DNA of 64,000 nucleotides from Sedimenticola selenatireducens. GTDB taxonomy: Bacteria; Pseudomonadota; Gammaproteobacteria; Chromatiales; Chromatiaceae. Both the position numbers and the translations under genes were made by a program. Below, piece after piece: positions 23,804 to 62,904 of the stretch. Every line of letters starts with the position of its first letter. Positions within the stretch are counted from its first letter, which is position 1. Under the pieces are notes generated by a model. The model saw only the letters and a list, made by a program, of their open reading frames with translations, was not told the DNA's origin and searched no databases. Location of the stretch: assembly GCF_007625115.1 (NCBI RefSeq), contig NZ_VMNH01000005.1:248001-312000 (forward strand), in the 5' to 3' direction.

Positions 23804-24064
23804 ATGAAGTCCCTGTTAGCAGTTGTTCTTAGCACCTTACTTATGATCACCGCCAGCAACGCATTAGCCGCCAAGAAAGAGGGTAAAGCCTATGGGGCCG
23901 GTGGCGTTTCCGAAGAAAAAATGAGTGACACCGCTGCCGAACATCGCAAGGCCTATGCGGGTGAGAAAGAGAAGAAAGTGAAAGAAGAAAAGGAGATGAA
24001 GGAAGAGAAAGAAGTGAAGGAGAAAAAAGCGAAGAAAGAAAAGAAGGTAAAGAAAGAGAAATAG
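23804..24064 (+). CDS. Small secreted Lys/Glu-rich protein
   Basis: An 86-residue protein with a clear Sec signal peptide (MKSLLAVVLSTLLMI then TASNALAA, cleavage after about residue 23). A short middle section (GKAYGAGGVSEEKMSDTAAEHRKAYAG) precedes about 33 residues made almost only of Lys and Glu in EKEKKVKEEKEMKEEKE-type repeats. The start at 23804 has AGAGGAAA upstream. The tail would form a highly charged helix. No family is recognised; the repeat could vary in copy number among strains. Confidence 0.65.
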   Translation: MKSLLAVVLSTLLMITASNALAAKKEGKAYGAGGVSEEKMSDTAAEHRKAYAGEKEKKVKEEKEMKEEKEVKEKKAKKEKKVKKEK

Positions 24065-24188: not shown

Positions 24189-24488
24189 ATGTTTGTAGCA
24201 ATGAGCAAGTTTGTCGTCGCCAATAATATGAGTGACCAGGTTCGGGAGGCATTTCGAAATCGGCCAGGGCTTGTCGATAGTGCAGAAGGCTTTATCCGTA
24301 TGGAGGTACTTAATCCTGACGATAACCCAGACGAATTCTGGCTCGTCACATACTGGCAGAAAAGTGAAGATTGGCATGAATGGTATCACGGCCATCAGTA
24401 CAAAGCCTCGCACAGCAACATACCCAAAGGATTGAAGCTCGATCCCGAAGCAACCATGATTCGGACTTTTAACTGTATCGCAAGTTAA
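24189..24488 (+). CDS. Antibiotic biosynthesis monooxygenase (ABM) domain protein
   Basis: A protein of 99 residues with the dimeric alpha/beta barrel (ABM) fold: MSKFVVANNMSDQVREAF at the start, then GFIRMEVLNPDDNPDEFWLVTYWQKSEDWHEWYHGHQY. The W-x-S-x-E-D-W-x-x-W pattern resembles the family of heme-degrading or quinol-type monooxygenases (HmoA/IsdG-like). Catalysis cannot be assigned from sequence. ATG at 24189 is chosen; TTG at 24186 and ATG at 24201 are alternatives. It is the first gene of an operon with the B12-binding protein (18-nt gap) and the diguanylate cyclase. Confidence 0.75.
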   Translation: MFVAMSKFVVANNMSDQVREAFRNRPGLVDSAEGFIRMEVLNPDDNPDEFWLVTYWQKSEDWHEWYHGHQYKASHSNIPKGLKLDPEATMIRTFNCIAS

Positions 24489-24506
24489 GCGTAGGAGTCT
24501 TCCAGC

Positions 24507-25538
24507 ATGTCCGCTGAACAATCGAATCACTTCCCTGCTATTAACAAGGCCCATGTAGTCGACGCTATCATTAACGCCTATCGCCTGCAGCAGCCAGAAC
24601 CGTTCCAGCGTGGAGGTACTGCATTTGAACAGAAATGCCGGGAAGACATTGCCTATCATCTGGATTATCTCAACATGGCGGCTGATGCCGATGCACCCGA
24701 GATATTTGCCGAGTACTCACGCTGGCTGCGAGATGTTCTGAACAGCAGAAATGTTCCGGCACGTTGTGTTGCTTTCTCTTACGAACTGCTGATAACCCAT
24801 TTTGCTAACCACCACCCAGAAGAAAGCGTATTGCTCGGTAATATTCTGGAAGCCGGGATTCAAGCCATAGATGATGACAAGCTACCTCAGGTAGCGCAAA
24901 CATTACCTGCCAACGCCCTGGAAGCAGAAAAGTTTAGTCTCCTGATCAGTCAGGGTGCCCGGGAGCAGAGTCGCAATCTCTATTTCGACAAACTGAAACA
25001 GAGCTCTTCTCTTGCACAAACTAATCTGGATCTGTTGCAACCTTCACTCTATGAAGTGGGTAGACGTTGGCAGATCAATCAACTCAGCGTCGCCCAGGAA
25101 CATATGGCTACCGCAATCTGTCAAAACTTAATGGCACAAGGATTTGGCAAAGTCCCTTTTGCGGCGAACAATGGCAAACGCGCAGTCTTTGCAGCAGTCG
25201 AAGGCGCACAACATGCCCTGGGTATCCAGATGGTTGCAGACGGTTTTGAAGAGGCCGGCTGGGCGTGTGACTTCATTGGTGCAAATACGCCTTTGGCAGA
25301 TCTTCTTGTCTATCTGGATCGTGAGAAGCCCGATTTGTTGGGACTCTCCGCCACCTTACCGGTAGACATCGCCCAGGCAAAGCGGATGACCGCCCAGATA
25401 CGCGCCGAGCTGGGAAATAGCTGCCCGGTCATTATGGTGGGTGGCCTGACTACCAATTACCTACCGCGCAGTTGGGAGCTAACCGGTGCAGACATCTGGG
25501 CAGTAAATGCCGTTGAAGCGATCAAAGAGAGCAAATGA
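24507..25538 (+). CDS. Cobalamin-binding protein with CarH-type (Wx9EH) photosensor motif
   Basis: A 343-residue protein with three parts. An N-terminal helical domain (1-130) contains CREDIAYHLDYL. A B12 cap four-helix bundle (about 135-215) follows, and then a Rossmann B12-binding domain (about 222-340). The cap carries W188 followed by nine residues and E198-H199, the Wx9EH motif known from adenosylcobalamin photoreceptors of the CarH class. The Rossmann domain has H236-A-L-G (lower axial histidine), GWACDFIGANTP and VGGLTTN. There is no DNA-binding domain. Its stop overlaps the start of the GGDEF gene (ATGA), so the output is probably the diguanylate cyclase. The sensor role is inferred from the motif and the coupling. 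Confidence 0.85.
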   Translation: MSAEQSNHFPAINKAHVVDAIINAYRLQQPEPFQRGGTAFEQKCREDIAYHLDYLNMAADADAPEIFAEYSRWLRDVLNSRNVPARCVAFSYELLITHFANHHPEESVLLGNILEAGIQAIDDDKLPQVAQTLPANALEAEKFSLLISQGAREQSRNLYFDKLKQSSSLAQTNLDLLQPSLYEVGRRWQINQLSVAQEHMATAICQNLMAQGFGKVPFAANNGKRAVFAAVEGAQHALGIQMVADGFEEAGWACDFIGANTPLADLLVYLDREKPDLLGLSATLPVDIAQAKRMTAQIRAELGNSCPVIMVGGLTTNYLPRSWELTGADIWAVNAVEAIKESK

Positions 25539-26494
25539 ACCCACTGACTGACGCACCCGAAAAACGTTATATACCGCTATCACTTCTACGGTTCAGAACA
25601 CTGCTTGTGGGTGTGTTTGATCAGGGTGGACAGGTACTCGAATCCAACGCCGGATTTCAGATGCTCTGCACAGAGGAAGAGAGCGCCAACGATTGGAACT
25701 GCAGTGAATACTTAATTAATCCCTCATGGGATCAATTGCATCTTTCTACCTCATCCGATGATACTGATGCACCAATTTATCAAGGTATTCTCACACTACG
25801 ATTTCCAGAAGAGAACTACCAATCAGTAACGGCGATGATCTTCCGGCAAGAGGGACTCTATTATCTGGTCGCCGAATATAATGTGGAAGAGTTGGGATTG
25901 CTGAACACCAGTGTCACCGCGCTGAATGACGAACTGATGCGAATGCAACGGGAACTGGTACGCACCAATCATAAATTGGAAGAACAGCGCGAACTCTTTC
26001 GTATGGCCAGTATCACGGATGTATTAACCGGCCTGTACAATCGTCGCTTCTTCATTGAATCACTCACTGAAGAGATGGAAAGAAGTGATCGCTATGGAAA
26101 AAGCCTCTCATTGATATTGTGCGATGTTGATCACTTCAAACAAGTCAATGACACCTATGGTCACGACCAGGGTGATCAGGTCTTACGCGCCTTTTCCCAA
26201 TTAATAAATGAGTCCTTGCGTAGTTTCGATATTGCCGCCCGCTTTGGCGGTGAAGAGTTCATCCTGCTGCTTCCGGAAACAACCATCGAACAAGCAGTAA
26301 TGACGGCAGAGCGCTTGCGAAAGCAGTTTAAGCAACAGAACATGACAACGCCACCCACAACAATAACCGCCAGCTTTGGGGTGGCAGAATACACCAAAGG
26401 CGAAACAGAGGACGAAATAATTAAGCGTGCAGACCTGGCTCTCTACCAAGCGAAAAAAACTGGCCGAAATCGCGTTGAAAAAGCGACTGATTAA
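25535..26494 (+). CDS. Diguanylate cyclase (PAS-like sensor, coiled coil, GGDEF)
   Basis: A 319-residue protein predicted to make cyclic di-GMP. An N-terminal PAS-like domain (about 18-118, LLVGVFDQGGQVLESNAGFQ) is followed by a coiled coil (about 121-157) and a GGDEF domain (about 160-316). The active site is G238-G-E-E-F, and the I-site R229-S-F-D232 lies five residues before it, so the enzyme should be active and product-inhibited. Other conserved parts are ITDVLTGLYNRRFF and LCDVDHFKQVNDTYGHDQGD. There is no transmembrane segment, so it is cytoplasmic. It is translationally coupled to the B12-binding gene by a 4-nt overlap. Confidence 0.93.
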   Translation: MNPLTDAPEKRYIPLSLLRFRTLLVGVFDQGGQVLESNAGFQMLCTEEESANDWNCSEYLINPSWDQLHLSTSSDDTDAPIYQGILTLRFPEENYQSVTAMIFRQEGLYYLVAEYNVEELGLLNTSVTALNDELMRMQRELVRTNHKLEEQRELFRMASITDVLTGLYNRRFFIESLTEEMERSDRYGKSLSLILCDVDHFKQVNDTYGHDQGDQVLRAFSQLINESLRSFDIAARFGGEEFILLLPETTIEQAVMTAERLRKQFKQQNMTTPPTTITASFGVAEYTKGETEDEIIKRADLALYQAKKTGRNRVEKATD

Positions 26495-30126: not shown

Positions 30127-30194
30127 GGCTAACGCCGTGCTTTGTGGCTGGTTTGTAGCGAAAAAACGGTCCATTAACAGCACCTTGTTAGGGC
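30127..30194 (-). repeat. attC-like site 2 (integron recombination site)
   Basis: On the minus strand: R'' GCCCTAAC, spacer AAG, L'' GTGCTGT, a central region including GGACCGTTTTTTCGC and CCAGCC, then L' ACAAAGCAC, spacer GGC and R' GTTAGCC. The stop codon of the DUF2971 gene (30188-30190) lies inside the R'' box, a common arrangement in integron cassettes. Confidence 0.75.
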
Positions 30195-31144
30195 CTATAC
30201 GGTATAGTTGAAGCGAAAACTTTATTCGACAGCTCCAATTTTCCCTTTATTTGTAGCATTCTCCTGACAGATCTCATTGATAATTCAGAGGACACAGTGG
30301 GTCCTAGAATAATCCTATCTATTAACCCATCTACGGTAAGTGGTGCATTCATGCCAGGAATCTGACTGAGTTTTAATTTCAATTTCGGCTCTACACCTTT
30401 TTCAGTAATATTGTATCCAAACATTGATGCAAAATGACCCTCAGGGTCTTTATCATTGAGATACACAAACCGCCATTCTTTCTCTTCCTTGAATCCTATG
30501 TGCTTAGTAAAGAGTGAGAATACTTTGAGCCTTTCAATCCAATACCAAGCTATGGCATTTAGGACCTCATCTGACTTCTCTTGTTCTTTGAGTAGCTCGG
30601 CCAAACTATGAATTTTATGCTTTATCCATTCAAGCCTAGATTCTTTAGTAACATACTTAACCGAACTAAGTATTAGAGGTGATTTTTCGTTTGGCTCTAT
30701 TTGCTTTGTATCAATTACAAAAGCTACGCCATCTCCATTTGCCCCATAACCACGCCACATCGAAAGAACACCGTCAAAGTCATCTTTATCATGCAAAGAG
30801 AAACACGAAATATACGTGTCTAACACATGGTTCTCATCAAACTGATTAAAGTAGTGATCAAAATAGTGTAGCAGTTGACCAAATACCTTCTCACTTCCAC
30901 AAGCTTCAATTAGAGCTTCATTTCCTCTAAATTCTGCCGCCCCCTGATTCATACCAAAAACCAGCTCATCTAAGTCATTCATATTCAGAGGGTTAGAAAA
31001 CCAGATTTCTTCACCTTCAACTATATAATCAAAGTTTTGGATTGACGTGTAATGAGCCAGCAACGGAGTTTTGCTCGGAAACTCTGATACATCGTCATAA
31101 TCTTCCCACAAGGACCTATGAATTAAGTCGTTAATTGTATCCAT
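30188..31144 (-). CDS. DUF2971 domain protein, integron cassette gene
   Basis: A 318-residue soluble protein. LLAHYTSIQNFDYIVEGEEIW then FSNPLNMNDLDELVFGM (residues about 28-65) is the characteristic N-terminus of DUF2971, followed by ...SCFSLHDKDD, MWRGYGANGDGVAFVID and EKEWRFVYLND. The function of the family is unknown to me. I chose the ATG at 31142-31144 (AGAAGG upstream); the frame extension beyond it enters an attC-like site. The gene lies between two such sites and its stop is within one, so it is a complete cassette. It is A+T-rich compared with the core genes. Confidence 0.8.
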   Translation of the reverse strand: MDTINDLIHRSLWEDYDDVSEFPSKTPLLAHYTSIQNFDYIVEGEEIWFSNPLNMNDLDELVFGMNQGAAEFRGNEALIEACGSEKVFGQLLHYFDHYFNQFDENHVLDTYISCFSLHDKDDFDGVLSMWRGYGANGDGVAFVIDTKQIEPNEKSPLILSSVKYVTKESRLEWIKHKIHSLAELLKEQEKSDEVLNAIAWYWIERLKVFSLFTKHIGFKEEKEWRFVYLNDKDPEGHFASMFGYNITEKGVEPKLKLKLSQIPGMNAPLTVDGLIDRIILGPTVSSELSMRSVRRMLQIKGKLELSNKVFASTIPYRP

Positions 31145-31155
31145 ATACCTTCTCA

Positions 31156-31225
31156 GCCCTAACGTTTCGCACAGCCGAAAGGAGCCGCGTAGCGGCAACG
31201 CATCGGCTGGTGCGACTGGTTAAAT
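31156..31225 (-). repeat. attC-like site 1 (integron recombination site)
   Basis: On the minus strand: R'' ATTTAAC, spacer, L'' GCACCAGCCGA, central hairpin GCCGC-TAC-GCGGC, L' TCGGCTGTGC, spacer GAAAC, R' GTTAGGGC. The L arms pair with a single extrahelical base, and the R boxes have the AAC/GTT core. This is the clearest of the three sites. It lies 11 nt upstream of the DUF2971 start. Confidence 0.8.
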
Positions 31226-56154: not shown

Positions 56155-57156
56155 CTAAGGAACCGTATTGCGTAGGTCTCGAAAAGAAATTCCTAGACTG
56201 ATGAAACACCCGATGCCAACACCAAGCGGCACAACTGTAATCAACAAATTATAAAGTAATGAAGCCGCAATCGACTCCTCCTGGCTTATTCCAAAAGGTA
56301 ACAGACCCACTACAAAGGCCGCCTGAATGGTACCGATAAACCCAGGGGCGGTAGGCAATGACATCCCGACTGCGGATAGAAATAACACAATAGCCGCGGC
56401 CGCAAGCGATATCTCAATATTGAGTGCAAGCAGGGTCAAATAGAGTGAAGTCAGCATTGCTAACCAAGTCAGTACACTCAGAAAGATAACTTTGAGCAGA
56501 ATCGCTCCCTTTCGCAAAACTGTCACACCCTCTATGGCATCCTCAATCCATCTTTTAACGGTTATTAAAAATACTTTAGACGGCAGGGAGTCGAACAGGG
56601 CCTTCAGAAAAGATCTGGTATGCGGGGGAGAGAAGAGGAGCAGTGCAATTGGAATGATGGCAAGCAATATCAGGTAACTCACCGTCATTACAAAACTGTT
56701 CAGCAGATCTGAATGAAATGTGACGAAAACAAAAGAACATAACAAAAAAATAAGCACCATCAATAAATCAAATATTTTTTCTAACGCAATGGTTGATAGT
56801 GCAGTGAATGCCGCGACAGGATAGCGGCGAGAGAGGAGAATAGCCCGAGTGATCTCACCCGCTTGAAACGGCAGTAGAATATTTCCAGCATAACCTAGCA
56901 TCACATAGGGGATTAATTGTTCGGTTGAGAGATTAATTTTTGATGAGAGCAGTAAATGCCACCGGTATGTTTTAAAAACAAAAAAAAGCGCGTAGGCAAA
57001 AAGCGCCCAAAGAATCATTTTACCGTCTATCTGCTGGCTGCCAATTTGCCAAACATCCGCCAACTTGACATTGCGAAGTGCAAGCCACAGAAACAGTATT
57101 GATAAGGCAATACCACCCAGAAATAGTAAGCGCTTTCTAACGGTTGGCGAATTCAT
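56155..57156 (-). CDS. LPG-synthase/UPF0104-type membrane protein, putative lipid flippase
   Basis: A 333-residue protein with about eight membrane helices of the lysylphosphatidylglycerol synthase transmembrane (UPF0104/YbhN, AglD-type) family. Typical stretches are TYRWHLLL, MLGYAGNILLPFQAGEITRA (the G-N-xx-P-xx-GE-xx-RA core) and SLPTAPGFIGTIQAAFVVGL. Members are proposed to flip or handle lipid-linked glycans. It is the last gene of the six-gene glycan operon and overlaps the GT-C-like gene by 20 nt. Confidence 0.82.
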   Translation of the reverse strand: MNSPTVRKRLLFLGGIALSILFLWLALRNVKLADVWQIGSQQIDGKMILWALFAYALFFVFKTYRWHLLLSSKINLSTEQLIPYVMLGYAGNILLPFQAGEITRAILLSRRYPVAAFTALSTIALEKIFDLLMVLIFLLCSFVFVTFHSDLLNSFVMTVSYLILLAIIPIALLLFSPPHTRSFLKALFDSLPSKVFLITVKRWIEDAIEGVTVLRKGAILLKVIFLSVLTWLAMLTSLYLTLLALNIEISLAAAAIVLFLSAVGMSLPTAPGFIGTIQAAFVVGLLPFGISQEESIAASLLYNLLITVVPLGVGIGCFISLGISFRDLRNTVP

Positions 57157-58891
57157 TGGCTGGCATTACATAGGTGGACCCTACCTCTGATGAGGCGTGC
57201 ACTCGTTTCATTGCCCTTTGTAATCTTGTCAAAGAGTCTTGGTCTTTAGATAGGTTCATCGCAACCTTATTATTAGTTTGGTAAAACTCCTCAAATAGAA
57301 TAATTCTGCCTGACTTTTTTGCAGCCTGTTCAATTAGGGCCGTAATCGATTGCCCTCCAAAATCCCGACCAAAGGTAGAAATGGAAATGATAGGCAACCG
57401 TTTGTTCAATAGCGCATCGGCAAGCACTGGAGCAGTGCGCGAACTTATTAAGGCTATTTGGCTTTTTGACAGATAGCGCATGGCTTCTGCCAATCCGGCA
57501 TTATCTGTAACAATAACTAAATCATTTACAGTGGCTTGGCTAATAACCCAAGCACCTTTGACCCGGTCATACTCATGTTCAGGGTTTTTTACCAAGAACA
57601 TACCACCAACAAAATTGTGCACGAGTAATAGACCCGCAAATACCATCAGGGCACTTTGTTTTTGTTTTACAACACAGGCCTCAAAGAGAAACACCGCTAA
57701 TAGAATCATTAAAGGCGGCAAGGCCATAATCCAGGCCTCAATCCCTGCCGGATTCAACCGCCCAACCACAGCGCCGTATAGTAATAGCCATACAATAATG
57801 GTCACTGTTTGAGTATCAAGAACACGCTTAAGGGATAAAGGCCAAGATACAATCACGATACGCGACGCGACAACCAGTAACAATATCAATGACACAATTG
57901 GAAAATAAACTATCCATCCCGCACGTTGTGCTAAAAATACCTCCTCTGCAATAACATTATTAGAGAAAGCACGATTGATTAATTGCACGACAACATCAAA
58001 GCCGAAGATCCAATTAGCTGATACCAAATCATGTGATAGCGAAAATGCTGATCGAATAAGTGAAACAAATACCGTCTTAACAGAGAGGGTCGGAATCATA
58101 AACTCATCCGAGCGCTGTGATAGAAATGCAATAAAGCTATGGAGAGAAAAGGTCGCTTGCCAATAGAGAAAGTAGCCGGCCAGGTATCCTATCCCCACAA
58201 CTAGCGATCCAGGAATTAGATACTGCGCAAGCAAAACAAGGCCTTCTTTGTACTCCTTCGTGATAAAGAGCACTGGAAACGCAAAAAACAGGGGGATGAC
58301 AGCAGGCTGATAAAAAAGAACCCCTAATCCCGCCACACTTCCCACTAATGAGATTTTGAAACCTGTGCTACATTTTTCCAGCTTTTGGCTATCCAAATAC
58401 TGTGCTAATAAATGGTAGATCAACAAGCAGAGTAAAATAGCCGGTATATACACTTCTGCTTCCGATGCATAACGCCAAAACCCATAGCTGCTGCCTAATA
58501 CTATGGCTGCCATACCTGCTGTAAAGTTCGAAAGTTTGAAGTTCAGTGTTAAAATTCTAATTACAAGGATAAGGGCCGTGGCAGCACACATTGCCGAAAA
58601 GAATCGCATTAATGCAAGCGCAGAGATATCCAAGCTGAATGCAGAGCCTACTACGTACAGCCCGCGCATCAACATATGATAGAGCATTAAGCGCGGATCA
58701 GAGATGTGCGTAATGGGGAAATTTTCAGCACGATAAGCAAATGCATAAACATCGTCAGTTTCACTAAGATTACCAGCCGTAGTAAAATAGTAGAACGCTA
58801 CAATACCTACAAATAAAACACTTGTTGTAAACCTCCGGCCTTCGGCAACCTTCCGAACTAATACTGAAAGCGTATGACTGTGCATATTCAT
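57137..58891 (-). CDS. GT-C type polytopic glycosyltransferase (putative)
   Basis: A 584-residue membrane protein with about 11-12 predicted helices in the first 430 residues and a soluble C-terminal domain of about 150 residues. The first extracytoplasmic loop has SETDDVYAFAYRAE (D46, D47), where GT-C enzymes such as ArnT or PMT place their catalytic acid. It would transfer a sugar from a polyprenyl-phosphate donor on the periplasmic side. Family membership is by topology and this motif, so moderate confidence. It lies between the NodB hydrolase and flippase-like genes. Confidence 0.65.
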   Translation of the reverse strand: MNMHSHTLSVLVRKVAEGRRFTTSVLFVGIVAFYYFTTAGNLSETDDVYAFAYRAENFPITHISDPRLMLYHMLMRGLYVVGSAFSLDISALALMRFFSAMCAATALILVIRILTLNFKLSNFTAGMAAIVLGSSYGFWRYASEAEVYIPAILLCLLIYHLLAQYLDSQKLEKCSTGFKISLVGSVAGLGVLFYQPAVIPLFFAFPVLFITKEYKEGLVLLAQYLIPGSLVVGIGYLAGYFLYWQATFSLHSFIAFLSQRSDEFMIPTLSVKTVFVSLIRSAFSLSHDLVSANWIFGFDVVVQLINRAFSNNVIAEEVFLAQRAGWIVYFPIVSLILLLVVASRIVIVSWPLSLKRVLDTQTVTIIVWLLLYGAVVGRLNPAGIEAWIMALPPLMILLAVFLFEACVVKQKQSALMVFAGLLLVHNFVGGMFLVKNPEHEYDRVKGAWVISQATVNDLVIVTDNAGLAEAMRYLSKSQIALISSRTAPVLADALLNKRLPIISISTFGRDFGGQSITALIEQAAKKSGRIILFEEFYQTNNKVAMNLSKDQDSLTRLQRAMKRVHASSEVGSTYVMPANEFANR

Positions 58892-58895
58892 TTGT

Positions 58896-59867
58896 TTAAT
58901 TAAACTTGGGCACTATCTGTTTAAGGCTTTCGACATTAAGGTGATTTACTTGTGAAATCAGTGGTCGAATTTCAAATAGTTGACTGTAGCGTTTCATTAT
59001 CCTCGACATCAATGCGATCTTCTCTTGTGATGTTTTCCTCATACCAGGTATATAATGTACGTCAACAGAATCATCACTGCCCAAAAAATCCGTCGCATGC
59101 AAAAGGAATGAAGGTGTGATATTAAATGTGCGGCAAAGTGAAAACGCCATGTGAAAATAAATATTTGCTAAAAACTCTGATCTATCGGCAAGGTAATTGA
59201 TGTATGTGCCATGGAAGGGTAAACGTAACAATGGCAGGGTAGAAACAGGTAGTTCTACTATGCGTCCCATGTTAGTGATTAATGTATAGGGCTTTAGTGG
59301 TTGCCAGCACTCAGCCAAGCTACCGTACAGATGGTTATTCAACGTCGTTTCTGTTTTTAGGTTTGCCGATTGTGTACGCTGATACCAGCGCGCCAACATA
59401 CCGAGTGAGTTGGGCAATGATGAAGTATCATAAATATAATCACACTCTTGCAAGACCTCCAGCATTGCCTTGGAAATACCAAATGCGGGGCCACGAAATC
59501 CCCGTGGCTTTTGGCCCGTCGCGTTTTGAATAGAAACTTCGGCTCTTTTAATGTCTGCCAGAATGGTTTCTTTGGGAAGATCATGTAAATCGATAGCGTG
59601 ATCGTAAGAGTGGTTGCCTATTTCATGCCCACGCTGAGAACATTCAGATAACAGCGATTGCAGTGCACAATTTTCAGCATCACGTCCAACAATAAATACC
59701 GTCAAGCGTAATTCATGCTGATCTAAAAAATCGAGGATCCTTGGTAGGGCAATTTCTAAAAAAGAAGGATAGGTCTCCCAACCTTTAATGCCAAAGCTCC
59801 GTTGATAACACCACAGATTATCCAGATCAATAGACAGGGTAGCGGATTGCTTGGCGTCTATATCCAC
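58896..59867 (-). CDS. NodB-type polysaccharide deacetylase
   Basis: A 323-residue carbohydrate esterase family 4-like enzyme without a signal peptide, so cytoplasmic or peripheral. Motif 1 is LSIDLDN (D14, D16), motif 2 is H86-S-Y-D-H90 in HEIGNHSYDHA, motif 3 is FRGPAFGIS (R125-G-P). All metal and catalytic positions look intact. By analogy with ArnD it may remove an acyl or formyl group from a lipid-linked amino sugar. Gap to the next gene is 4 nt. Confidence 0.85.
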   Translation of the reverse strand: MDIDAKQSATLSIDLDNLWCYQRSFGIKGWETYPSFLEIALPRILDFLDQHELRLTVFIVGRDAENCALQSLLSECSQRGHEIGNHSYDHAIDLHDLPKETILADIKRAEVSIQNATGQKPRGFRGPAFGISKAMLEVLQECDYIYDTSSLPNSLGMLARWYQRTQSANLKTETTLNNHLYGSLAECWQPLKPYTLITNMGRIVELPVSTLPLLRLPFHGTYINYLADRSEFLANIYFHMAFSLCRTFNITPSFLLHATDFLGSDDSVDVHYIPGMRKTSQEKIALMSRIMKRYSQLFEIRPLISQVNHLNVESLKQIVPKFN

Positions 59868-59872
59868 TTCTT

Positions 59873-61210
59873 TTATACACCCGCTTCTTGTGCAAGAAAA
59901 TATTCGGCCCCGGTGTTCGCAAGATTAACCGTTTCATCCACACTTAATGAAGCATTCACAATGTGTGCAGAATTAATGATATAAAGGCCCGGAACAGAGG
60001 TAGCCATTGACGGTAATTTTGAAGTGTAGTTTTGTGTTGCAACAGCTACAACATGACGTGTTCGTGATATCTTAAATGCCAATATTTCTGATCTCTTTAG
60101 ATCCGGGAACATACGCACTAAGCCAGCAATAAAACGGGCTTCTATCACTTCATCTGCTGCAGCAAAAAGAGGATCATCAACGGGTAGGTACTTCGGAAGA
60201 TAGACTAAATGTTTGCCATTAAATTCTACTGCAGAATCCACCAACGTTGACATTTCAATAATGGTTGTGAAGGGTATTGTTTCATCGGTAATATAGGTCA
60301 GGTAAGCTTTGCCCAATGGTCGCGTCAAAATAAGTGATGCGCAAATAATCCCCTGATAAAGAATTTGACTATGAGCCTTTATCTCATCTTCACTCAGCGC
60401 TTTACAATGGTCTACTGCAATAGGTGATGCACATGTATCGATAATGCGATCAAATTTTAGGCTATCCTCTTTACTGTCCACCGTTAGCTCATTGATACCC
60501 TTGGTTATTGAGGATACGCGCAACCCCGTTTTGATAGTAACACCTTCTGATAAAGCCCTCTGTTCAAGCACAGATAATACTTTTTGGTAACCACCAGGGA
60601 CATAACCAAACATCTCTTTTTTCATTCCACCACGCCGCGCCGCATAAAAGCGCCGGATCACTGACCAAATATAGGCCGCAGATGCCTTTGAATAATTACT
60701 GCCTAATTTTGAACGCAGTAGAGGCCGCCATAAATTCTGGTATGTACTTTTTCCCGACAACTGCGTCAGCCACTTTTCAGCACTAATGGCTTCCAGCTTT
60801 TTACCCTTTTTGATCCGTGACCCATAAACAATGGTTGCAGCCAGACGTACTTTATCAATAAGCGTTAATGCGGGAAGGCGAATATAGTCCCACGCATTAT
60901 TCAAAGGATATAGATCCTGTCCGGTGTAGAAATTTGTCTTAGTCACTCGCCACTCAATCAGCGCTTCAATCGCCAATTCTTCTAGCAACGATCGTAACCG
61001 AAGATCCGACAACATAATGACATGATAATAACGATCCCAGCTTATACTGCCCAACTGCCAAGAAGAGACCAGCCCACCCAAATTGGAGGCCGCCTCTATC
61101 ACTGTAACACGGTAGCCAGCCTGGGTTAATCGGAGAGCAAGCGTCAAGCCGAGCATACCACCACCTACAACACCAACCGATGGCCTCTCTTTGTTGATAT
61201 CTTTACTCAT
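59873..61210 (-). CDS. FAD-dependent amine oxidase/protoporphyrinogen oxidase-like protein
   Basis: A 445-residue flavoprotein. The dinucleotide fold VGVVGGGMLGLTLALRLTQA then GYRVTVIEA and GGLVSSW is at residues about 12-52, and the C-terminal FAD contact is GLYIINSAHIVNASLSVDET. It belongs to the NAD(P)-binding amine oxidase/UDP-galactopyranose mutase-like superfamily often found in glycan loci. Its reaction is not predictable. Its start overlaps the preceding gene by 4 nt. Confidence 0.78.
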   Translation of the reverse strand: MSKDINKERPSVGVVGGGMLGLTLALRLTQAGYRVTVIEAASNLGGLVSSWQLGSISWDRYYHVIMLSDLRLRSLLEELAIEALIEWRVTKTNFYTGQDLYPLNNAWDYIRLPALTLIDKVRLAATIVYGSRIKKGKKLEAISAEKWLTQLSGKSTYQNLWRPLLRSKLGSNYSKASAAYIWSVIRRFYAARRGGMKKEMFGYVPGGYQKVLSVLEQRALSEGVTIKTGLRVSSITKGINELTVDSKEDSLKFDRIIDTCASPIAVDHCKALSEDEIKAHSQILYQGIICASLILTRPLGKAYLTYITDETIPFTTIIEMSTLVDSAVEFNGKHLVYLPKYLPVDDPLFAAADEVIEARFIAGLVRMFPDLKRSEILAFKISRTRHVVAVATQNYTSKLPSMATSVPGLYIINSAHIVNASLSVDETVNLANTGAEYFLAQEAGV

Positions 61211-62904
61211 ATGTGTGATGGGTCAATCCTAGGATCTTCCGGCATCGGCTTTCTAAACCAGCGCTTCGCTGCCAAATGGAAGATCAGTTTCAAATGATCT
61301 CCTGTTGTCTTAATCAAGTTAATTTTTGATTCGCCTAAAAGCCTTACTTCCAGGATTGCAGGGTATTCTTTGATCCTATATCCTGCTATATCCAGCCTCC
61401 CTAATATTTCAGTAACACCACAAAACCCATGATTATAGAGTTTCATATCCTGTACCGTCTTGAGACGATATAAGCGGAAGCAACTGGTATAGCTTGTTAA
61501 CTTATGCCTTAAAACACAGCGATACATCAATGCTGACCCACGCGATAATACTGTGCGCCATAATGGAACATTACGCATAGCCCCTCGTTCATGTGCGGGT
61601 GATGCGACAACCACATCAACATCCTCTCTGAGTAGCTCAATCATGTCCAGTAACTGGTCAGGTGAAAAAGTACAATCTGCATCAAGTACAGAAAGCAAAT
61701 CGGTAGTCGTATGTTGGATACCGGTTAATATTGCAGCCGCTATTCCCTGATTGTTTTCATGTCGTAGAAACTTGCAGTTCTCCTGTTCAGAAAACAACTG
61801 ATTCAACTCCACCCATGTGTTGTCTCTACTTCCATCATCTATGAATATGTACTGTAGGTTAAAAACAGATTTTGATTTTATTGCAAAACGATCCAGCGTC
61901 TTTTTTAAATAGGGCAGAGTGGCTTCTTCGTTATAGCACGGTATAAGCAATGTCAATGGCTGGCTGGCTGTTAATCGACCAAGGTGTTCTTGTACTGATA
62001 CTGATTCAATACGCCGAGTTAACTGTGGAGCGGGCTGTTGCATAATATCCAGCTCCAAATATTCAGCAACAGATGAAAATTGATGTGTTGTCAGGTAATA
62101 CTTAATCTTATCTGACATCGAATCCAGATTACGATAGTGGCGTAACCTCTGTAATATGTTTGCGGCGGCTATGATCGGTTGTCCTGTATCCAATTCCCAT
62201 GTGTGGAAATAGAGCACCAGTGGTTCTTCATGTTCAAGCAGCCATCTTTCAACACCCCATTTTAGTAACCCATGGGGTAACTGCCGAAAGTAATTTCCTC
62301 CCGAAATGGGTAAAGACCAATAGAGTAACTGTTGAGAGGAAATCGGTATCTCAAAAAGTGAACCCTTAATGCCACTATGTTGATGTATTACCGTACGAGA
62401 CGGTTGATTTGAAAACTCACGACCTAAACGGCAAATACTGGAATCATAACTAAATCCTTGTTCAATTAATTGGTCCAGAATCCATAACTCTTTTTCACCG
62501 ATCCAACCACGCCCTAAACGAAAGCCATAGATGGCTGTTCCTAGTGCATCCTCCATCGCATAGCGTGATCTTCTCAGGTCCTGAGCAAAAACATTTTCAG
62601 ATACTTCATTTATGTCATAGTGAAAATAGCCCTGACAGGCTACCTCATGCCCCGCACCTATAATATCTATCAACAAATCTGGATGATTATCAGCGATCCA
62701 GCCACAAGCAAAAAAAGTCGCTGTATTATTTGTTTCAGCTAACAATTCAAGCGTTGTGTATAAATTACTTTTTAACCTCGTCTCGAATCGTTCCCAGTGA
62801 TCCGTTGGTATGAGATTACGAAATGCACCCACCTGAAAGTAATCCTCCAACACAATAGTAAGGATATGCTTACGCTCTCCCATATTGGTAGAGCCTTCAA
62901 TCAT
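61207..62904 (-). CDS. Fusion of a degenerate NodB-like domain and a GT2 glycosyltransferase
   Basis: A 565-residue fusion. The N-terminal part (about 12-290) resembles PEP-CTERM/XrtA-type deacetylases (LEDYFQVGAF, GHEVAC, a C-terminal YFHTWELD), but motif 2 reads Q91-G-Y-F-H95 instead of HxxxH, and motif 3 reads R129-L-G instead of RAP. Deacetylase activity is therefore doubtful. The C-terminal part (about 317-565) is a GT2 domain (IPCYNEEATLPYL, DDGS at 356-359, DAD at 408-410), of the dolichol-phosphate mannosyltransferase/ArnC type but without clear membrane helices at the end. It probably loads a sugar on a polyprenyl phosphate. Confidence 0.85.
   Translation of the reverse strand: MIEGSTNMGERKHILTIVLEDYFQVGAFRNLIPTDHWERFETRLKSNLYTTLELLAETNNTATFFACGWIADNHPDLLIDIIGAGHEVACQGYFHYDINEVSENVFAQDLRRSRYAMEDALGTAIYGFRLGRGWIGEKELWILDQLIEQGFSYDSSICRLGREFSNQPSRTVIHQHSGIKGSLFEIPISSQQLLYWSLPISGGNYFRQLPHGLLKWGVERWLLEHEEPLVLYFHTWELDTGQPIIAAANILQRLRHYRNLDSMSDKIKYYLTTHQFSSVAEYLELDIMQQPAPQLTRRIESVSVQEHLGRLTASQPLTLLIPCYNEEATLPYLKKTLDRFAIKSKSVFNLQYIFIDDGSRDNTWVELNQLFSEQENCKFLRHENNQGIAAAILTGIQHTTTDLLSVLDADCTFSPDQLLDMIELLREDVDVVVASPAHERGAMRNVPLWRTVLSRGSALMYRCVLRHKLTSYTSCFRLYRLKTVQDMKLYNHGFCGVTEILGRLDIAGYRIKEYPAILEVRLLGESKINLIKTTGDHLKLIFHLAAKRWFRKPMPEDPRIDPSHI

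Follow-up and report, generated by a model that had tools for sequence, protein, structure and literature searches.

The 64,000-nt window analysed here, positions 248,001–312,000 of contig NZ_VMNH01000005.1 from Sedimenticola selenatireducens (genome of 4.03 Mb, 99.99% complete), contains a three-gene operon that encodes an ABM-fold protein, a B12-binding sensor and a diguanylate cyclase producing cyclic di-GMP (c-di-GMP). An earlier sequence-only reading of this DNA had placed the three genes at the positions listed below and an ABM-fold gene at the head of the operon, and both points hold (Pfam PF03992, 7.4e-13). The overlap of 4 nt that it reported between the sensor and cyclase genes is likewise present: within the shared ATGA, the cyclase start codon occupies 25535–25537 and the sensor stop codon 25536–25538. 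The ABM and sensor genes are separated by 18 nt.

Table. Genes, domains and flanking element of the operon, in window positions, with the basis of each assignment or its key residues.
Feature	Position	Strand	Description
ABM-fold protein gene	24189..24488	+	99 aa, IsdG/HmuQ-like relative; Pfam, NCBIfam, alignments with IsdI and family
Predicted photocobilin gene	24507..25538	+	343 aa: N-terminal photoglobin, four-helix cap, B12-binding Rossmann domain
Phycobiliprotein-like globin domain (predicted), residues 14-122	24546..24872	+	Profile search; Cys44 24636-24638, Asp47 24645-24647, Trp73 24723-24725
Four-helix cap (B12-binding_2)	24915..25151	+	Pfam PF02607; W188 25068-25070, E198-H199 25098-25103; alignment to SasPcob 8j2w
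B12-binding Rossmann domain	25176..25535	+	Pfam PF02310; lower axial His236 25212-25214
Diguanylate cyclase gene	25535..26494	+	319 aa: PAS-like (23-114), coiled coil (117-160), GGDEF (160-313); GGEEF 26246-26260
Perfect inverted repeat, 17-nt arms, 1-nt loop	24076..24110		Possible boundary hairpin, no clear T run

The B12-binding part of the sensor carries the residues expected of a light-responsive adenosylcobalamin (AdoCbl) protein. W188-x9-E198-H199 and H236, noted previously, are confirmed by sequence and alignment, and they belong to a larger published light signature, GxxW/EH/GxxH/GxxxP (PMC11796333), that is complete in the window protein as G185..W188, E198-H199, G233..H236 and G258..P262. 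We aligned the window copy with the best 80 of 349 relatives, giving a set of 81 loci in which organism names are those of the submitters' record titles, some of which look wrong for metagenome-assembled genomes (MAGs), and in which two sensor frames (L052 and L025) are broken or short. Because W and EH are built into the patterns used to find these relatives, the conservation of the two motifs in 81/81 is partly a product of selection; H236, also His in 81/81, is free of this effect, as are D47 and W73 discussed below. Gln189 occupies the place of CarH His132 (position named in PMC11796333), as it does in SasPcob. The earlier statement that the protein has no DNA-binding domain also stands, since no such family is matched in Pfam or NCBIfam. 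A CarH-like transcription regulator was considered and rejected: there is no MerR-type DNA-binding domain, and the NCBIfam CarH model scores 41.9 bits against a cut-off of 400.

The closest sequence matches in the PDB are the photocobilins SasPcob (3.3e-26) and AbPcob (7.4e-19). A predicted structure of the whole sensor has a predicted local distance difference test (pLDDT) score of 93.5, and its B12 region superposes on SasPcob 8j2w with a root-mean-square deviation of 2.0 Å over 208 columns. In Foldseek the B12 half of the model resembles CtMerR, SasPcob, AbPcob and CarH. The Foldseek alignments placed ~210 columns on the photocobilin structures and covered the B12 half alone, probably because the domain order is reversed relative to those structures.

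The term 'B12 photosensor' used in the sequence-only reading overlooks the first ~125 residues, which are predicted to form a phycobiliprotein-type globin; photocobilin is the better term. Pfam applied to the window sensor by itself matched the B12 parts and not the globin. A profile built from 43 N-terminal domains of the window protein and its relatives was searched against all PDB chains. It matched the C-terminal bilin domain of SasPcob first (4e-10), followed by phycocyanin and allophycocyanin chains (phycocyanin alpha, 1.7e-8), and the assignment of the globin half rests on this search. Individually, 24 of the 43 domains match PF00502 (Phycobilisome) at E ≤ 0.1; the window copy alone is unmatched. 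In the alignment, D47 and W73 are the counterparts of two SasPcob residues described as key to biliverdin binding, Asp270 and Trp296; AbPcob itself has no such Asp (PMC10979010). In the profile alignment C44 and D47 fall on the phycobilin CxRD motif, with C44 on its Cys; the photocobilin paper describes its own proteins as lacking a bilin-linking Cys (PMC10979010). In the set formed by the window copy and its 80 relatives, position 47 is Asp in 71/74 ungapped sequences, position 73 is Trp in 76/77 and position 44 is Cys in 58/75. Taken together, the profile and structure matches of the B12 and globin halves lead us to predict that the protein is a photocobilin of globin–B12 order. The B12 domain is known to occur at either end of photocobilins (PMC10979010).

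Copies of the B12 protein occur in several phyla, in most cases next to a cyclase or kinase gene. The closest named relative at the locus is a Sedimenticola MAG (L021), with 68% identity, and the same-genus genome G004 yields the same locus (L002), with frames that agree. In the cyclase, GGEEF (G238, G239, E240, E241 and F242) and the I-site residues R229/D232 are intact, as had been proposed, and are invariant in 16/16 aligned sequences, in an alignment that omits rows L036, L040, L044, L047, L061 and L066 and where the start of row L022 is doubtful. The PAS domain and coil assigned to its N-terminal part are supported by a structural model (mean pLDDT 86.5) and by fold matches, but not by a Pfam PAS model at E ≤ 1.

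An output could be assigned at 67/81 loci, with 32 GGDEF proteins and 35 histidine kinases. All but one of the GGDEF outputs are encoded by the following gene on the same strand (31 loci), and the remaining one is a single fused GGDEF–globin–B12 protein (L083). GGDEF calls were made by motif except for the window, L083 and L086; the kinase calls carry a Pfam HATPase match in 34/35, with L077 called by motif only. On the sensor tree, a quick tree with 26/78 weak inner branches, the type of output changes at least 11 times. Although they have no GGDEF domain, 22/35 kinases match the window cyclase at E < 1e-3, and for this reason the part in common is presumably the PAS/coil region. Two Adhaeribacter loci hold just a 164- or 171-aa protein at the output position, and the output-position protein of L084 (8002–8670) carries a short Cys-rich tail (CMHCKK...CPEC) after its PAS/coil part, with no match to a cyclase or kinase family. 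In another genome of the family (L004), a cyclase gene lies beside a more distant B12 protein.

Could the B12 protein and cyclase be chance neighbours that are co-transcribed and do not interact? The cyclase gene is convergent, on the other strand, at two further loci (L026 and L085), and no output is assignable at 14/81 loci, where the sequence is otherwise cut, unclear or without an output domain. The same-strand linkage is nonetheless maintained across phyla, in many cases with only a few bases between the genes or shared by them, outputs are swapped around a constant sensor, and in L083 the two functions are one polypeptide, so that we regard mere neighbourhood as very improbable. The pairing of the two genes is not confined to this locus, so that one of the results named in the earlier reading as refuting it did not arise. 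Its proposal of coupling between an AdoCbl sensor and the cyclase is supported by the conserved adjacency, the L083 fusion and published precedent (PMC10979010), and needs amending for the bilin-type globin that it missed. The general photocobilin–cyclase arrangement, which it called little-described, is already in print (PMC10979010).

The ABM gene had been given no role; within the operon it is the element with the greatest novelty and the least explanation. Its product matches the NCBIfam HmuQ model (4.6e-11, 42.9 bits against a cut-off of 130), and its solved relatives include IsdI, HmoB and MhuD. IsdG-type enzymes require an Asn–Trp–His triad (PMC6018153 and PMC5557675; the role of the Asn in MhuD is treated in PMC8801480). 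In alignments with IsdI and the family, the window protein has Ser6 (24204–24206) at the position of the catalytic Asn and keeps W65 and H75. Among 53 linked ABM proteins, the window copy included, Ser is found at the Asn position in 50/51, the single Cys coming from the broken L073 frame; W65 is conserved in 51/52, H75 in 51/52, R25 in 51/51 and W56 in 51/52. Asn is present in all 26 sequences fetched from 69 lower-scoring matches in the class, and because of this difference the Asn-to-Ser change looks diagnostic of the photocobilin-linked ABM branch.

An ABM gene was called present when phmmer gave E < 1e-3 and its end lay within 650 nt upstream of the sensor frame. ABM stands beside the sensor at 54/78 loci, three others (L048, L054 and L063) having too little upstream sequence to be assessed: 53 copies are upstream, usually within 50 nt, and one (L094) is fused to a PAS–histidine kinase directly after the sensor. 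The frames behind five of these calls (L031, L071, L073, L081 and L099) are short or broken. L041, scored as having no ABM, likewise offers little sequence upstream of a short sensor frame. By record title, the carriers include Pseudomonadota, Planctomycetota, Gemmatimonadota, Verrucomicrobiota, Bacteroidota, Nitrospirota (represented by a single MAG that is placed within Pseudomonadota) and, for the fused copy, Chloroflexota. A second kind of fusion is seen in L107 (1432–3515), where ABM is joined to PAS and a coil without an output domain, directly upstream of a photocobilin. No ABM was found within ~1.5 kb of 16 more distant B12 loci of the window genome and relatives (L005–L020).

A separate draw of 369 genomes of the class was searched with sensor and ABM profiles. 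Nine genomes, including that of the window, match the sensor profile at E ≤ 1e-30, and seven of these were judged to have the globin. The ABM profile gives 73 matches in 71 genomes, four of them at 110–165 bits and 69 at ≤69 bits. All four high-scoring proteins, the sole such members of this small branch in the draw, adjoin photocobilins: the window's own and that of G285 are upstream, that of G141 is on the opposite strand and that of G355 is fused to a PAS–coil. The hypergeometric probability of four out of four falling in seven of 369 genomes is 5e-8 (2e-6 without the window's own), a value computed after the result was seen. Sensors without a high-scoring ABM occur in G419, in G292 (461 nt visible upstream) and in G475, a gammaproteobacterial genome with three photocobilin-like genes (L108, L111 and L112) and no ABM neighbour within ~1.5 kb. 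Replacement of ABM by a canonical heme oxygenase was examined and rejected: the PF01126 loci of eight genomes (seven without ABM and one unassessable) share no 31-mer with the sensor loci. The window genome encodes an adenosyltransferase and CobS; it yielded no second ABM match at E ≤ 1e-6, no PHY domain and no PF01126 heme oxygenase, HugZ-type and radical enzymes being outside the search.

Pigment supply as the role of the ABM protein is the weakest step of the explanation we favor, a tentative assignment that we place somewhat short of even odds. An alternative is that, instead of making a pigment as an enzyme, it binds heme or bilin as a regulatory subunit, or as a scavenger, within the signalling complex. 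This would fit the near-invariant Asn-to-Ser change at a position that IsdG-type catalysis needs (PMC6018153, PMC5557675), the fusions of ABM to PAS–kinase and PAS–coil proteins and the loss of H75 from one fused copy. The likely heme pocket formed by W65, H75, R25 and W56 is, on the other hand, nearly invariant, and most copies are separate small genes directly before the sensor. We consider the regulatory role possible, though less likely than not.

The domains, motifs, conserved linkage, fusions and output swapping described above were established computationally. On this basis, and by analogy with known systems, we give a probability of about 0.62 to the reading that the operon is a photocobilin-type switch for light or AdoCbl that acts on c-di-GMP, with the ABM protein making, delivering or sensing a tetrapyrrole. 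Pigment binding, light chemistry and direct contact would follow the solved photocobilins. In the dark, AdoCbl would be held between the cap (W188, E198 and H199) and the Rossmann domain (H236) in a head-to-tail dimer. The Co–C bond would be broken by green light, or by red light acting via a bilin in the N-terminal globin; loss of adenosine may then move the helix bearing E198/H199 and loosen the dimer. Since Gln189 replaces His132, as in SasPcob, the light state is expected to have a water or hydroxide ligand as in that protein, rather than the bis-His ligation of CarH. The overlapping cyclase would receive this change through contact with its PAS-like domain and coil, which together are probably an adaptor because the same sensor works elsewhere with histidine kinases. 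The tetrapyrrole handled by the ABM protein, a heme-oxygenase relative with Ser in place of Asn, would most likely be that of the globin. The model comes from published photocobilins, in which AdoCbl is bound in a dark dimer, Co–C is cleaved by green light or by red light that the bilin absorbs, and the helix with the Glu-His pair shifts (PMC10979010). In the same work, the apparent kcat of AbDPcob increases more than 10-fold in the light, and a separate cyclase domain is activated by light-state AbPcob and by holo-SasPcob (PMC10979010).

A more elaborate version is a self-supplied two-pigment switch. Here the ABM protein would convert heme to a bilin that may be non-canonical; this bilin would be attached at Cys44 and serve as an antenna for AdoCbl photolysis, with the PAS–coil adaptor exchangeable between the cyclase and histidine kinases. 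We think this version unlikely as a whole; if true, it would represent a novel class of chromophore synthesis from heme, reserved for a single family of photoreceptors.

Several observations weigh against a light switch of this kind. For many carriers, record titles and the habits of the genera point to sediments, symbionts or reactors, where light may be scarce. Distribution is patchy, with a full-length copy in 2/9 genomes of the window's genus. For ABM, 24 of the 78 loci counted as assessable show no copy, and presence and absence require at least 15 state changes on the tree. Having Ser for Asn, the window ABM lacks the IsdG catalytic triad, and the fused ABM of L107 (L116) has Gln at the heme-ligand His position. 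Genomes with ABM do not clearly lack PF01126, as compensation between the two would require (PF01126 in 10/52 genomes with ABM versus 7/22 without, p = 0.25; many are incomplete MAGs). For 13/35 kinases no match to the window cyclase was obtained at E < 1e-3, which leaves a shared adaptor unsupported in these cases. The published proteins add further complications. AbDPcob binds biliverdin poorly (PMC10979010), and for this reason the globin need not hold a bilin in cyclase-linked forms. SasPcob with AdoCbl and without biliverdin activates the cyclase in the dark and seemingly inhibits it in the light, and full-length AbDPcob remains dimeric in light (PMC10979010). Dimer opening therefore need not be the switch, and neither the sign of the response nor the oligomer step can be predicted for the window sensor.

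An alternative explanation is that the sensor responds not to light but to the supply of AdoCbl or to oxygen/redox state, its loading with AdoCbl setting its state and, through it, that of the cyclase; ABM would report heme or oxygen, and the light chemistry would be incidental. Carriers include symbionts and sediment or iron bacteria, judged by record titles and partly by what is generally known of their habitats, and the three Bacillota carriers among the loci, two of them from anaerobic genera, have no ABM. It is also relevant that AdoCbl binding alone lowers the cyclase activity of AbDPcob relative to the apo form (PMC10979010). However, all of the light signature is kept. Its adenosine-stacking Trp and its Glu-His pair were in part selected by the scan pattern; the Asp and Trp of the bilin site lie outside that pattern and are nearly as conserved. 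Sensing of supply or redox state in place of light is thus unlikely, and we retain the photocobilin-type switch as the preferred reading.

The inverted repeat lies between the operon and a small upstream gene (23804–24064) for a Lys/Glu-rich protein with a signal-like start and no Pfam family above cut-off; a similar gene occupies the equivalent place in the Sedimenticola MAG locus (L002 724–975). Terminator-like sites in the region number 4 against a shuffled mean of 3.2, the promoter and terminator scan gave no excess over shuffles, and no cobalamin riboswitch or other Rfam element reaches the gathering threshold in the 64 kb. Elsewhere in the window, a 336-aa protein (30188–31198) weakly matches the PADLOC candidate defence family PDC-S31 (1.6e-5), and a minus-strand gene run (56155–62904) has LPG_synthase_TM, polysaccharide deacetylase, amine oxidoreductase and glycosyltransferase domains, together with a 584-aa gene (57137–58891) that has no Pfam match at 1e-6.

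Schneider et al. are said to have reported photoglobin linked to signalling domains in 2022. Earlier publications already describe photoglobin–B12 fusions, the occurrence of either domain order and the coupling to a cyclase. For the link between ABM and photocobilins, our literature searches, which did not cover the 2022 photoglobin paper or supplements, found no report; the main text of PMC10979010 contains neither 'monooxygenase' nor 'heme oxygenase', and that of PMC10151467 mentions no IsdG, HmuQ or monooxygenase.

Among known systems, CarH shares with the window sensor the W-x9-EH motif, the axial His and the cap and Rossmann fold; the window protein differs in having no MerR DNA-binding domain and no His132, in its extra globin and in an enzyme as output. 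Photoglobins and BBAG-2 globins share with the window sensor the linkage of a globin to B12-binding proteins; a CxQD motif is reported for photoglobins, and the BBAG-2 branch is generally linked to canonical heme oxygenase (PNAS 2023, PMC10151467). The gene linked in the window is instead an ABM/IsdG relative and not PF01126. With IsdG/IsdI, MhuD, LFO1 and HmuQ, the window ABM shares the fold, the Trp and heme-ligand His positions, the Arg and the second Trp; it differs in its Ser for the catalytic Asn and in an extra conserved IPKGLKL near the C-terminus that is unaligned in weaker matches. This single-residue difference from heme oxygenases makes the source and identity of the bilin a question that can be tested with three small proteins.

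The nearest counterparts are the photocobilins SasPcob and AbDPcob (Zhang et al. 2024, PMC10979010), which likewise combine a CarH-type B12 domain with a phycobiliprotein-like globin, have the adenosine-site residues and are coupled to diguanylate cyclase; SasPcob further shares the Gln that stands where CarH has His132, and also the Asp and Trp of the bilin site. They differ in domain order (B12–globin rather than globin–B12), and in the window the cyclase is on a separate, overlapping gene. The two solved photocobilins also have no Cys at the phycobilin attachment position, where the window protein has Cys44. That a photocobilin can place a cyclase under the control of light has previously been shown for one fused protein and for its separated parts (PMC10979010). 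The window locus would be a natural two-gene version of this system, with sensor and output apart, and in its relatives the same sensor drives c-di-GMP or a kinase.

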